A stretch of 54,303 nt of DNA, taken from contig JABFSE010000019.1 in assembly GCA_013140765.1 (NCBI GenBank), forward strand, positions 1 to 54,303, read 5' to 3'. The translations under genes and the position numbers were made by a program. The DNA comes from Sulfuriferula sp. Its GTDB lineage: Bacteria; Pseudomonadota; Gammaproteobacteria; Burkholderiales; Sulfuriferulaceae. Positions 46,332-54,303 of the stretch are shown here, in pieces. Every line of letters begins with the position of its first letter. The first letter of the stretch is position 1. Under the pieces are notes generated by a model. It saw only the letters and a program-made list of their open reading frames with translations. It had not been told where the DNA came from and searched no databases.

Positions 46332-47632
46332 TGCGCAAAACATATCATATAAGTAGTTATCTGGCATGGCTAACTTTAGTGCCATTATTGGCATTAGCGG
46401 TGAGCATGGCATTGTTCTTTTTACATGACCGATTCCGTAGTCTGGATAATAACTTGCAGATGCGTGGCGATTTGATCGCGCATCAATTGGCTAACAGTAG
46501 TGAATATGGCGTTTATGCCAATAATTTAGTGTTTTTACAAAACACCGCGCAAGGTGTGTTGCAGCAAGCTGACGTGGATAGCGTGACCATATTGAATGAG
46601 CAAGGCGTTGTTCTCGTTGACATTAGTCGCAAAAATAGGGGGCAGGCACAGCAGGAAAATCTGGCGATTTCTCGTCCTATCAATGCAACGCAAGTGGCAC
46701 TGGATGAATTTGAAAATAAGCCTTTACCCCAGCAAATAGGTGCAGTCACCATTGGTATGAGTTGGGCGCATACGCATACTACCAAATTGCGCCTGTTGTG
46801 GTCAGCCGCTATCGCGACCTTGCTGTTTTTGATGCTGGTGCTTTATCTGGTGTATTTGACGAGTCGCCGCATTGCGATGCCGATTGCACAATTGAGTAGT
46901 GCTATTGCTGATATGGGTGAGGGGAGCTTGAGCGTGCGCGTCGCTATAGATACGCGTATCAATGAATTAGCGACGCTGGCGCAAGGTATCAATAACATGG
47001 CAGCACAGTTGCAAAGTGAGCGCATGGTTTTGCAACAGCGTATTGATGCCGCCACTTTGCAACTAAAATCACTGGCGTTTTACGACACGCTCACGCAGTT
47101 ACCTAATCGACGTATGTTAGAAGATAGATTAGCGCACGCTATTGCAGTGAGTAATCGGTCGGGGCAATACGCGGCTATCATGTTCATTGATTTGGATAAT
47201 TTCAAACCGTTGAATGATATGCACGGTCATGCTTGTGGGGATTTGTTGCTAGTTGAAGCGGCGCGACGTATTGGTAGTTGTGTGCGCATGGTGGATACCG
47301 TGGCGCGGTTTGGCGGCGATGAGTTTGTCGTGCTTATTTCACAATTAACCCAAGATGCCATTGTGGCGCAAAACGAGGTGATGGCAGTGGCGAATAAAAT
47401 CTGCCATGAGCTGGCGTTGCCTTATACATTAAGCACTAAAGTGCAGGGGCATACGCAAGTGCTAATAGCGCATCAATGTACTTCGAGTATCGGTATCGCG
47501 GTATTTTTGGACGATAACTTGAGCCAAGATGAGATTTTAATGCGTGCCGATAAAGCCATGTATCAGGCTAAATCTAATGGCAGGAATCAGGCGTGTTTGT
47601 TTAGTGCAGATGCTGAAAAAAATCAAGATTGA
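46328..47632 (+). CDS. Membrane diguanylate cyclase (HAMP-GGDEF)
   Basis: The 434-aa protein has a transmembrane helix at about 12-30, a periplasmic region to about 150 (VDSVTILNEQGVVLVDISRK is sCache-like), a second helix at about 158-178, HAMP at about 180-235 and a GGDEF domain to the end. The active-site motif is intact (FGGDEF) and the inhibitory RXXD site (RMVD) lies five residues before it, so it should make c-di-GMP with product feedback. The start overlaps the binding-protein stop by 4 nt. Its end overlaps the convergent FisR-like gene by 10 nt. Confidence 0.92.
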   Translation: MMRKTYHISSYLAWLTLVPLLALAVSMALFFLHDRFRSLDNNLQMRGDLIAHQLANSSEYGVYANNLVFLQNTAQGVLQQADVDSVTILNEQGVVLVDISRKNRGQAQQENLAISRPINATQVALDEFENKPLPQQIGAVTIGMSWAHTHTTKLRLLWSAAIATLLFLMLVLYLVYLTSRRIAMPIAQLSSAIADMGEGSLSVRVAIDTRINELATLAQGINNMAAQLQSERMVLQQRIDAATLQLKSLAFYDTLTQLPNRRMLEDRLAHAIAVSNRSGQYAAIMFIDLDNFKPLNDMHGHACGDLLLVEAARRIGSCVRMVDTVARFGGDEFVVLISQLTQDAIVAQNEVMAVANKICHELALPYTLSTKVQGHTQVLIAHQCTSSIGIAVFLDDNLSQDEILMRADKAMYQAKSNGRNQACLFSADAEKNQD

Positions 47633-48927
47633 ATTTTGCGATATAAAGTCCGTTCGCTGATGCCTAGTTGTTGCGCGAGTGCTTTTTTGTCGTTGCCAAA
47701 GTGAGCTAATGCCCATTGTAAATAGTGTTGCTCCAGCGTGGCTAAGGGGATGATGTTTTGTCCGATAAAGGTGGCGGAGCTGGTGTCGGGCACGGCTTGG
47801 ATGATTTCGCTATCGAGGTGGGCGGGCAAGATGGTGTCGTCGTCGGCAAGCAGGCTGGCGCGTTCTAGTATGTTGCGTAATTCGCGGATATTGCCAGGGA
47901 AATCGCAACTGGTGAGCAGGTTCAGGCTGTCTTGGCTGAGCTTGAACGGGCGGTCTGGGCGGATACGGGCGAGTAGCGTTTCGGCGAGCAAGGGGATGTC
48001 TTCACGGCGTTCAACCAATGCGGGCAAGTGAATAGGGAAGGTGCTGATGCGGTAGTATAAATCTTTGCGGAAGCTGTCTTGCGCGACCATGTTTTTCAAA
48101 TCGCGATGGGTGGCGGAGATGAGCCTGAAATCAGCCCGTAATGGTTCTACGCCGCCAACACGGCGGTATGTGCCTGTTTCTAGCAAACGTAATAATTTAA
48201 CTTGCAGGCTTAAGGGAATGTCGCCAATTTCATCTAAAAAAAGCGTGCCGCCGCTGGCGGATTCAACCAAGCCGTGTTTGCGTTGATTTGCACCTGTGAA
48301 TGCGCCTTTTTCATAACCGAATAATTCGCTTTCAAATAAGCTATCAGTTACGCCCGAACAATCCACTGGCACAAAAGGCCCAGCTTTGCGCCGACTGGCA
48401 TCGTGTATGGCTTGCGCGACCAGTTCTTTGCCAGTGCCTGACTCGCCGAGCAACACAACGGTGGCATCAGACGGCGCAACGCGCTCGATGAGTCCCAGCA
48501 TTTGATTAAATGCGGCTGAACGTCCAACCAGCCCACGTTTATCAGGGCGTGTACTGGCTTGGGCGATGGTGTGCATCATTTCCACGTAATACACAATATT
48601 GCCCTCGGCATTGCGGATAGGGCTTAGTTCTACATCCACATGCTCCTCGCCGCGAGGGGTGTGATGTAGATGCAATACGCGTTGCGGGCTGCCCGTTAGG
48701 GTGGCGGATTTGAGTGGGCAAGATTCGCCCGCTTGGTCGCAGGGGCGAGTATAGTGATGCGATACTTCGTAGCAATGTCGCCCCACCAGCGGGCGGTTAT
48801 CGCCGTAGGTGGCGCGGTAGGCTTTATTGGCGGCAATAATGGTGTAGTCTTTATCCAGTAGTATGCGCGGTTCGGCTTGGCTGTCTAGGTAGGATAATAA
48901 CTCGGCAAGTTGGGTGGGCGTAGTCAT
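47623..48927 (-). CDS. fisR: Sigma-54 activator, FisR-like sulfane-sulfur sensor
   Basis: The 434-aa protein has an N-terminal PAS-like regulatory domain (1-130), a sigma-54 AAA+ domain ([29 protein letters not shown] with [14 protein letters not shown]) and a C-terminal Fis HTH ([19 protein letters not shown]). In the sensor domain Cys52, Cys63 and Cys70 stand at C-X10-C-X6-C, the spacing of the three reactive cysteines of Cupriavidus FisR (C53/C64/C71), which forms cross-links with polysulfide and then activates sqr/pdo. The start at 48927 gives this numbering; an upstream ATG would add 23 unlike residues. It is divergent from cydP-cydAB with a sigma-54 promoter between. The symbol is assigned by motif and context. 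Confidence 0.87.
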
Positions 48928-48947
48928 AATAGATAATGATTGCCAAA

Positions 48948-49008
48948 AATGACATTGTACGCGTGAACTATACGTCGCTTGCGTCATAAATGACATTTTT
49001 TGTGTCGT
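48948..49008. promoter_or_regulatory. Candidate FisR enhancer (UAS) cluster
   Basis: Repeated ATGACA/TGTCAT half-sites lie between the fisR start and the sigma-54 promoter: ATGACA at 48949-48954, CGTCAT at 48982-48987, ATGACA at 48990-48995 and TGTCGT at 49003-49008. GTCAT-AA-ATGAC (48983-48994) and ATGACA-N7-TGTCGT (48990-49008) form inverted pairs. They lie about 130-190 nt upstream of the -24 box, a usual enhancer distance for sigma-54 activators. Binding is inferred. Confidence 0.55.
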
Positions 49009-49135
49009 TAAATGGTGCTAAAAGTATATGAATATCTTAATAATCTAATTTTTGGCAGATATTTTTATAATTATCTATTTGTTTTTAATGTTAATTATTT
49101 GATTTGTAAAAAAATGTTAATCAGTTTGTCTAACA

Positions 49136-53358: not shown

Positions 53359-53755
53359 TTTACCCGCCAGTCATTACGATCGTATCGGTGGCGTGGACAA
53401 AATCCGCACGCTGGTGCATCGGTTCTATGAATTGATGGATGAATTACCTGAATCGTATGGAATTCGTAAGCTACATGCTGATAGTCTGCAAGGTTCAGAA
53501 GATAAGTTGGTTAAGTTTTTATCTGGCTGGATGGGCGGTCCGCAATTATATGTACAGGAATACGGTCATCCCATGTTGCGCCGCCGTCACCTGCCTTTTG
53601 CTATTGGCGCGTCGGAACGTGATCAGTGGCTGATGTGTATGGACATGGCGTTATTGGAAGTGGTGGCTGACAGCGCATTACGACGTGAATTATCCGACGC
53701 ATTCGCGAAAGTTGCCGACCATATGCGCAATCAGGCAGAAGTGCAAGTTGCTTAA
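53348..53755 (+). CDS. Truncated haemoglobin, group II
   Basis: The 135-aa globin has the group II pattern: YDRIGGVDKIRTLVHRFYELM with a Tyr in the B helix, the proximal His in MLRRRHLPFAIG, and Trp in RDQWLMCMDMAL (position G8). It probably binds oxygen, NO or sulfide at haem. ATG 53348 is inside the end of the dioxygenase gene (11-nt overlap), with GGAAAGGA before it, indicating translational coupling with it. Confidence 0.88.
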   Translation: MQPNLPASHYDRIGGVDKIRTLVHRFYELMDELPESYGIRKLHADSLQGSEDKLVKFLSGWMGGPQLYVQEYGHPMLRRRHLPFAIGASERDQWLMCMDMALLEVVADSALRRELSDAFAKVADHMRNQAEVQVA

Positions 53756-53775
53756 ATTTTTTGGAGAACTATAGT

Positions 53776-54159
53776 ATGAGTATGACCCCGCAACAGTTAG
53801 TGGCTGAAGCTAAGTCACAAATCAAAGAAATTGACATTGCCACGGCTGCTACGCAAATAGCCGCAGGTGTTATCGTCATTGACGTGCGCGAGCCCGCTGA
53901 ATTTGAAGCAGGTCGTTTACCCAATTCAGTCAATATCCCACGTGGCGTGCTGGAATTCAAAACAGGTGAACATCCTGCGTTGGCAAACAAAGATGCCACT
54001 ATCCTGATTACCTGCAAAACAGGCGGACGTGCAGCATTGGCAACATTGAGTTTACAACGTTTAGGCTACACACAATTAGCTTCCATTGCTGGGGGTTTTG
54101 AGGCGTGGGCAGGTGCGGGTCAGGCTGTACTTAAAGATAGCACCAGTTTTGGCGGTTAA
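53776..54159 (+). CDS. Rhodanese-like sulfurtransferase
   Basis: This single-domain, 127-aa rhodanese has VIVIDVREPAEFEAGRLPNSVNIPRG, the active-site Cys in TCKTGGRA, and SIAGGFEAW at the end. It should move sulfane sulfur between thiosulfate, persulfide or polysulfide and thiols. GGAG stands nine bases before ATG 53776. Stand-alone rhodaneses are common between pdo and sqr genes and speed persulfide handling. Confidence 0.92.
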   Translation: MSMTPQQLVAEAKSQIKEIDIATAATQIAAGVIVIDVREPAEFEAGRLPNSVNIPRGVLEFKTGEHPALANKDATILITCKTGGRAALATLSLQRLGYTQLASIAGGFEAWAGAGQAVLKDSTSFGG

Positions 54160-54185
54160 TTTTATTATTTTAAGAAAGTAACAAC

Positions 54186-54303
54186 ATGGCACACATAGTA
54201 ATCCTAGGCGCAGGCACAGGCGGCACCCCAGCAGCATACGAGTTACGCGAGATACTCGGCAAAGAACACAGCGTCACCTTGATTAACGCATCAGAAACAT
54301 TTC
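54186..54303 (+). CDS. sqr: FAD-dependent oxidoreductase, probable sulfide:quinone oxidoreductase (partial)
   Basis: The gene starts at ATG 54186 and runs off the right edge after 39 codons. The visible N-terminus ([20 protein letters not shown]) is the FAD-binding GXGXXG Rossmann loop of the SQR/NDH2 family, followed by LREILG and a second beta strand (SVTLINAS). SQR oxidises sulfide to persulfide and reduces quinone. Its place behind persulfide dioxygenase and rhodanese supports the SQR call; other flavoproteins of this fold cannot be excluded from 39 residues. Confidence 0.75.

Follow-up and report, generated by a model that had tools for sequence, protein, structure and literature searches.

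The window considered here, the whole stretch of 54303 bases that makes up contig C16 of a Sulfuriferula genome (2.18 Mb in 40 contigs), ends in a cluster where a FisR-type sigma-54 activator lies divergent from the genes of a cytochrome bd oxidase, themselves followed on the same strand by genes of sulfide and persulfide oxidation. A preliminary description of this DNA had named the genes, their order and their strands (fisR-cydPABX-ybgE-pdo-globin-rhodanese-sqr), the short gaps between them and a sigma-54 promoter leading into cyd; family profiles and coordinates agree with all of it. The features are the following.

47623-48927, minus strand: fisR, sigma-54 activator (Pfam PAS_4, Sigma54_activat and HTH_8 over cut-off; clade placement)
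48941-48954, no strand: predicted enhancer site 1, TGCCAAAAATGACA, of the TGTCA-N4-TGACA type (in 8/8 aligned loci; enrichment)
48982-48995, no strand: predicted enhancer site 2, CGTCATAAATGACA, its distance to site 1 being 41 bp (about four turns of the helix)
49137-49152, plus strand: predicted sigma-54 promoter TGGCAC-N5-TTGCA (11/11; GG-N10-GC conserved)
49257-49484, plus strand: cydP, small bd-oxidase subunit (NCBIfam NF045611, 43.8 bits against a cut-off of 29.6)
49481-51034, plus strand: cydA, bd-I type (Pfam; E. coli bd-I 6rko, E 3.7e-217)
51098-52237, plus strand: cydB (TIGR00203, 490.7 bits)
52252-52374, plus strand: cydX (TIGR02106, 42.1 bits against 31.6)
52377-52634, plus strand: ybgE-like gene (PF09600, 74.5 bits against 25.2; under the NCBIfam equivalog cut-off)
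52657-53358, plus strand: persulfide dioxygenase gene (pdo), ETHE1 type (matches to 9rhq, 4ysb and ETHE1 4chl)
53348-53755, plus strand: truncated haemoglobin gene (globin; PF01152, 130.1 bits)
53776-54159, plus strand: single-domain rhodanese gene (PF00581, 66.9 bits)
54186-54302, plus strand: sqr, first 39 codons, where the contig ends (97% to the SQR of the congener G014)

From cydP through sqr, all on the plus strand, the successive gaps measure -4, 63, 14, 2, 22, -11, 20 and 26 bp. The oxidase belongs to the bd-I type, CydA, CydB and CydX all being present in the window by family profiles and structure match. The persulfide dioxygenase (PDO) matches 9rhq (1.5e-91) and 4ysb (7.7e-76), whose record titles give the metallo-beta-lactamase family only, as well as the ETHE1 structure 4chl (3.3e-62); its match to the hydroxyacylglutathione hydrolase 1qh3 is far weaker (1.5e-16). 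The orthologue of the window SQR in G014 matches the solved SQR 3sz0, which we take to be of the A. ferrooxidans type, over 2-424 at 1e-178; sqr closes the gene run in that genome and nadB comes next. The 5' end of sqr is common to contigs C16 and C11 of the window genome over exactly 127 bases (window 54177-54303; L198 3857-3983) and its 3' end sits at the end of C40 (L199), ahead of nadB. These contig ends suggest that the assembly broke inside sqr on account of two upstream contexts for one sqr, due to a duplication or to an assembly effect. The genome as a whole gave a single match for cydA, a single haem-copper oxidase match (cbb3 type, one ccoN) and one RpoN.

Sigma-54 sites were scored as letters matched out of the 11 letters of the consensus. 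The site at 49137-49152 is the sole one scoring at least 9/11 between 47600 and 54303. Such a match was not accepted as convincing on its own, another 11/11 site (7303-7318), probably due to chance, being located inside a recN-like gene; the promoter before cyd stands above chance because it is conserved at the same place in 8/8 aligned loci and enriched over shuffles. The alignment comprised eight fisR-cyd intergenic regions, seven from genomes of the same genus and one from a genome of another family (G051). The GG-N10-GC promoter element is kept in 8/8 regions, enhancer palindrome 1 in 8/8 with mismatches allowed, and palindrome 2, read by eye, in 6/8 at the same distance of 41-42 bases. 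The true start of fisR is most likely 48927, and a start at 48996 was dropped because enhancer site 1 falls within the supposed extension. Since enhancer site 2 covers the -35 hexamer of one predicted fisR sigma-70 promoter, FisR might limit its own synthesis by autorepression; this is only a suggestion, as the sigma-70 scan did no better than chance in the region (14 predicted sites against 11.7 in shuffles).

In the region of its PAS domain, the window FisR carries cysteines 52, 63 and 70, spaced as C-X10-C-X6-C, and further along an AAA+ domain with the GAFTGA loop that contacts sigma-54 and a Fis-type helix-turn-helix. The closest named relative found, encoded in an unannotated part of the megaplasmid record of Cupriavidus metallidurans CH34, is 56.5% identical and has cysteines 53, 64 and 71; the genes that it faces resemble those of a dioxygenase (33% to the window PDO) and of an FAD-oxidoreductase. 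Relatives were divided into a C clade, at about 50% identity or more to the window FisR, and an S clade, at 41-48% by tblastn. The idea that only the cyd-linked clade has the cysteine motif was rejected: the motif is found in 150/151 distinct C-clade rows and in 16/16 S-clade rows, and therefore marks both FisR clades. The sensor belongs to the FisR clade, as the preliminary description had supposed from its cysteines, along with the C. metallidurans protein beside its pdo-like gene. FisR of Cupriavidus pinatubonensis presumably has the third cysteine of the motif as well. A tetrasulfide is formed there between C53 and C64, at a spacing equal to that of the window protein, according to the part of the report available (PMC8614764).

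Gene order around fisR orthologues was compared in genomes drawn evenly from the order and from the class, with C-clade loci taken at 434 bits or more and the window not counted; at most four candidates per genome were scored in these samples and in the one from outside the class, so that the counts are lower bounds. A cydA divergent from C-clade fisR was found in at least 24 of 61 loci in the order and at least 6 of 24 in the class. With the congener G017 added, 31 of 86 unnamed loci are cyd-linked and span 14 family codes. The pairing of cyd with sulfur genes recurs in other families. Distinct C-clade loci whose upstream sequence extends to 6 kb or more number 123 (the window, with 5.4 kb, is counted among them), and in 49 of these cydA lies within 3 kb; a same-strand sqr (at least 60% identity) or pdo (at least 35%) is present within 9.5 kb in 20 of these 49, and a globin gene in 17. 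Another 30/123 loci have no cyd, but sqr, pdo, a SLAC1/TehA-type channel or a psr/phs-like molybdoenzyme. Similarly, a psr/phs-like gene is found outside the class in 13/21 loci read, of 27 listed matches, and the enzyme from L121 is closest to PhsA and to the solved thiosulfate reductase 2vpw. In loci of the Dechloromonas/Azonexus type (L210, L216, L218, L226 and others), a ccoG-like gene comes first opposite C-clade FisR (18/131 loci); ccoG being a cbb3 assembly factor, this arrangement is hinting at a second oxidase link.

Named loci were the best 80 of 549, ranked by likeness to a window-led alignment, and their rates consequently lean toward the window arrangement. Within this set, cyd-linked examples are found in Azoarcus indigens DSM 12121 and Azoarcus sp. 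TTM-91, with pdo in Azoarcus taiwanensis and Pseudothauera lacus, with globin and sqr in metagenome-assembled genomes (MAGs) of Thiobacillus, in a Gallionellaceae MAG, and in Methylotenera MAGs with a ccoG-like gene in between. A replicon of Pseudoalteromonas xiamenensis encodes a 45% FisR relative divergent from annotated cydP, cydB, cydX and ybgE, and tblastn located its cydA within what is annotated as cydB. A FastTree was built from 167 distinct proteins (14 duplicates and, by subtraction from 182, 2 rows of fewer than 330 residues were left out, and a long-branch warning applies); on it the cyd label changes 16-18 times, at least 10 of them forced by starred branches, against a shuffled mean of 48. 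The link between fisR and cyd was therefore made or lost repeatedly.

Predicted control sites were surveyed in 86 C-clade loci, 31 cyd-linked and 55 other. The palindrome (at least 8/10 letters) is found in 25/31 and 47/55 of them, compared with 22% and 16% of dinucleotide shuffles, and a sigma-54 score of at least 9 in 23/31 and 33/55, compared with 7% and 6%. Tandem palindromes occur in 16/31 cyd-linked and 34/55 other loci, the rate in mononucleotide shuffles being 0.3%. Of 55 tandem spacings, 39 lie at 22-23, 30-33 or 41-43 bases, which correspond to about two, three and four turns of the helix; the shuffles used for tandems and spacers keep single-base composition, those used for palindrome and sigma-54 enrichment keep dinucleotides. 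Outside the window, TGTCANNNNTGRCR matches at 43 places, palindromes counted once, and among the 15 read one has a facing sigma-54 site close by. A perfect TGTCATTTTTGACA lies at G000:C40:79814-79827 in the window genome, with a sigma-54 site (9/11) about 78 bases on, facing a Tll0287-like (PF11845) gene (L199:9080-9709, minus strand). This family recurs in FisR operons of other genomes, e.g., L249, L250, L266 and L279, and the gene is a predicted second FisR target.

The window genome holds both clades, and its S-clade FisR, on contig C8, faces a second sqr whose product is 64% identical to the SQR of the cyd-linked cluster of G014. Upstream regions of the S clade carry TGTCATGACA, the C-clade half-sites with zero spacer. 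This zero-spacer site (at least 9/10 letters) is found in 13/15 S-clade regions, 0.2 being expected, and the four-base spacer in 1/15, whereas the C clade has the four-base spacer in 40/86 (0.8 expected) and zero spacer in 5/86 (1.1 expected, mononucleotide shuffles). An eight-base spacing in 12/15 S-clade regions, with TGACA seen upstream of the core, is read here as a composite site; a tandem exact TGTCATGACA gave no match in the window's own genome. The contact loop is GAFTGA in 144/151 C-clade rows, and in the 16 S-clade rows it is GAFTGC in 10, GAFTGA in 4 and otherwise in 2, GAFTGC in sqr-linked S-clade FisR (e.g., L052 6863-8188) being an unusual sigma-54 contact loop. The two FisR sensors would thus share half-site recognition and be told apart by spacing. 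We lean towards the view that C-clade FisR is a widespread dedicated switch tying sulfane sulfur to the choice of terminal oxidase, in which paired FisR regulons would be insulated by the four-bp spacer difference. Such a difference between paralogues offers a simple handle on how duplicated sigma-54 activators avoid cross-talk.

Among 18 genomes of the same genus that were searched, 13 have the cyd operon, and all 13 loci read share the same order from cydP to rhodanese, lost pdo aside; in 13/13, each of cydA, cydB, globin and rhodanese forms one uninterrupted reading frame covering at least 90% of the query. The sensor gene is intact in seven (G000, which is the window genome, G014, G015, G017, G005, G011 and G009), in pieces in five (G003, G004, G006, G012 and G013; loci L303, L304, L305, L307 and L308) and off the contig in G002. 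The idea that the eleven congeners without an intact C-clade fisR simply do not have the locus was rejected, since five of them have fisR pieces before intact cyd genes. Among the other six, G002 is cut at the contig edge, G001, G007 and G008 have only shorter CydA matches, and G010 and G016, which are incomplete, gave no cydA match.

The pdo gene has its full length in 7/7 genomes with intact fisR and in G002, and where fisR is decayed it is 34% covered in G004, absent in G013, 19% covered in G006, 59% in G012 and 78%, in three frames, in G003. The cyd-linked type of sqr (at least 79% to that of G014) is found in G014, G015, G005, G011 and G009, in two pieces in G002, and the contig ends within it in G000; a genus-wide search found it in none of the five genomes with decayed fisR, whose sqr is of the 62-65% type only. 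Mapped onto a tree of CydA and CydB, fisR decay in these five requires five changes, at least four of them forced by starred branches. The joint loss of fisR, pdo and sqr thus happened repeatedly, in 4-5 separate events, and the three genes behave as one sulfur unit. As cyd stays while they are lost, FisR is tied to sulfur and the oxidase has uses beyond FisR. This repeated joint loss amounts to a natural experiment.

A relic is another way to read the same genomes: the operon would run from other promoters, and FisR control would be fading in the genus. Besides the five fragmented fisR genes, the upstream regions of G004, G013 and G006 speak for it, as they retain no enhancer site and no strong promoter (neither element was found in G004 and G013, and only a weak promoter-like match, 8/11, in G006). 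G012 keeps both enhancers and the promoter, and G003 (80% complete, with a stretch of N in its upstream region) keeps one enhancer and the promoter. On the contrary, the window and six congeners combine an intact fisR with conserved enhancer and promoter and with an intact pdo in all seven, which makes a relic the least probable of the explanations that we weighed.

Together with the sensor cysteines, the conserved control sites and the recurrent linkage, the joint losses make it quite probable that the locus is a sulfane-sulfur-switched respiratory detoxification operon under FisR. Several observations weigh against this explanation. In five congeners cyd, globin and rhodanese persist although fisR has decayed, and in G017 (75% complete) the search gave no sqr match although both fisR and pdo are intact. 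Cyd was seen in 0/21 loci read outside the class, out of 27 matches listed and over about 1.5 kb at most, and 44/123 C-clade loci have neither cyd nor any tested sulfur gene on that strand. At some cyd-linked loci (e.g., L146, L160, L161 and L180) neither an enhancer nor a promoter could be recognised. Terminator-like sites are in excess in the region (17, with 8.8 expected by chance, sd 2.9), and eight of them on the plus strand lie inside cydA, cydB or pdo. Finally, the FisR of Acinetobacter baumannii responds to sulfide without these cysteines, in the available part of the report (PMC7315123), so that the cysteine rule is not universal.

Loci lacking both cyd and sulfur genes are also what would be seen if FisR sensed nitric oxide, cyanide or low oxygen, the bd oxidase and the globin of the operon forming a general stress module with pdo and sqr as passengers; in the same sense, 29/49 cyd-linked loci have no sqr (at least 60%) or pdo (at least 35%) within 9.5 kb. 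However, decay of fisR takes pdo and the cyd-linked sqr with it and leaves cyd, globin and rhodanese in 5/5 genomes, the opposite of what this explanation predicts, and the joint loss therefore renders it less likely and the sulfur-switched operon more so. The cysteine motif of nearly all C-clade rows and the sulfur genes faced by members without cyd, including the psr/phs-like genes outside the class, also argue against a stress module, as does the search for FNR-like sites (at most one mismatch), which found none before cyd, the sole match in the window lying elsewhere. We hold a general stress module to be very unlikely.

A third possibility, which we consider rather unlikely, is that FisR controls only itself and cyd, with pdo to sqr transcribed separately and no single sulfur-switched unit. 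The 63-bp gap between cydA and cydB and the excess of terminator-like sites inside cydA, cydB and pdo would favour it, predicted sigma-70 sites exist, at chance level, and in other families cyd often comes without pdo or sqr. Nevertheless, the gaps from cydB to sqr are only -11 to 26 bp, the order from cydP to rhodanese is that of all the same-genus loci read, there is no internal sigma-54 site of at least 9, and the terminator scan listed no plus-strand site between the operon genes.

For a sulfur-switched operon under FisR, we infer the signal, the direction of control, the single transcript and the physiological benefit as follows. Sulfide entering the cell would give rise, through SQR, to persulfide or polysulfide, which would cross-link the sensor cysteines of FisR, as may be expected from Cupriavidus FisR. 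Bound at the two phased TGTCA-N4-TGACA sites, FisR would then remodel the sigma-54 polymerase at 49137 and drive cydPABX-ybgE-pdo-globin-rhodanese-sqr as one transcript, as the layout of the locus, its conservation and the co-loss suggest. SQR would pass the electrons of sulfide into the quinone pool, PDO and rhodanese would clear the persulfide, and the H2S-insensitive bd oxidase would reoxidise quinol once the sole haem-copper oxidase found, of the cbb3 type, is poisoned. H2S inhibits purified E. coli bo3 at about 1 uM but leaves bd-I and bd-II uninhibited at 58 uM, in the available part of the source (PMC8657789). The unit is self-consistent because the only bd oxidase stands behind a sulfane-sulfur sensor together with SQR, PDO and rhodanese, and because bd is insensitive to H2S. 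Direct coupling of sulfane sulfur to oxidase choice is thus strongly predicted, and the locus opens the question of polysulfide, rather than low oxygen, setting that choice.

FisR of C. pinatubonensis JMP134 is reportedly the subject of work by Li et al. in 2017. It activates sulfide-oxidising genes, according to the portions of the reports at hand (PMC8614764, PMC8469610, PMC12170894), and resembles the window FisR as a sigma-54 activator with the X10 spacing of C53 and C64, whereas the first genes behind the window promoter are those of a terminal oxidase. This likeness is drawn from its description, the sequence comparison being made with the C. metallidurans relative. In A. baumannii, fisR is divergent from pdo1-sqr-tauE with a predicted sigma-54 promoter and cydAB is induced by sulfide, but FisR lacks the sensor cysteines, and cydAB, located at a distance (A1S_1433-1434), has no assignment to FisR in the accessible part of the paper (PMC7315123). 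The cioRAB genes of Chromobacterium violaceum likewise encode a dedicated regulator with a sulfide-protective bd oxidase, this regulator being a MarR-family repressor and not a sigma-54 activator, as far as the available text goes (PMC11837568). The cydABX-ybgE operon (bd-I) of E. coli encodes the same subunits, the window CydA matching 6rko. ArcA and Fnr, rather than a sigma-54 sensor of sulfur, regulate that operon, which is not known to have pdo or sqr attached.

Haem-copper oxidases are poisoned by sulfide, and induction of bd oxidases by sulfide is known, e.g., in A. baumannii, with no direct sulfur sensor assigned in the literature searched, and here a sensor of known family adjoins the bd genes. 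The placement of cyd in a FisR regulon had been put forward as the new part of this locus, and the literature searched, mostly outside subscription papers, showed no earlier case. The linkage stands and is recurrent, with FisR placed before a bd oxidase, and often before sqr and pdo too, in no fewer than 14 family-level groups; uniqueness to this locus does not, and cyd is sometimes kept without FisR.

On the other side of the sensor gene, a TonB receptor, an ABC-type substrate-binding protein and a HAMP-GGDEF protein are encoded in a row (window 43487-47632) that reaches the 3' end of fisR, and the same row lies beside fisR in G014.

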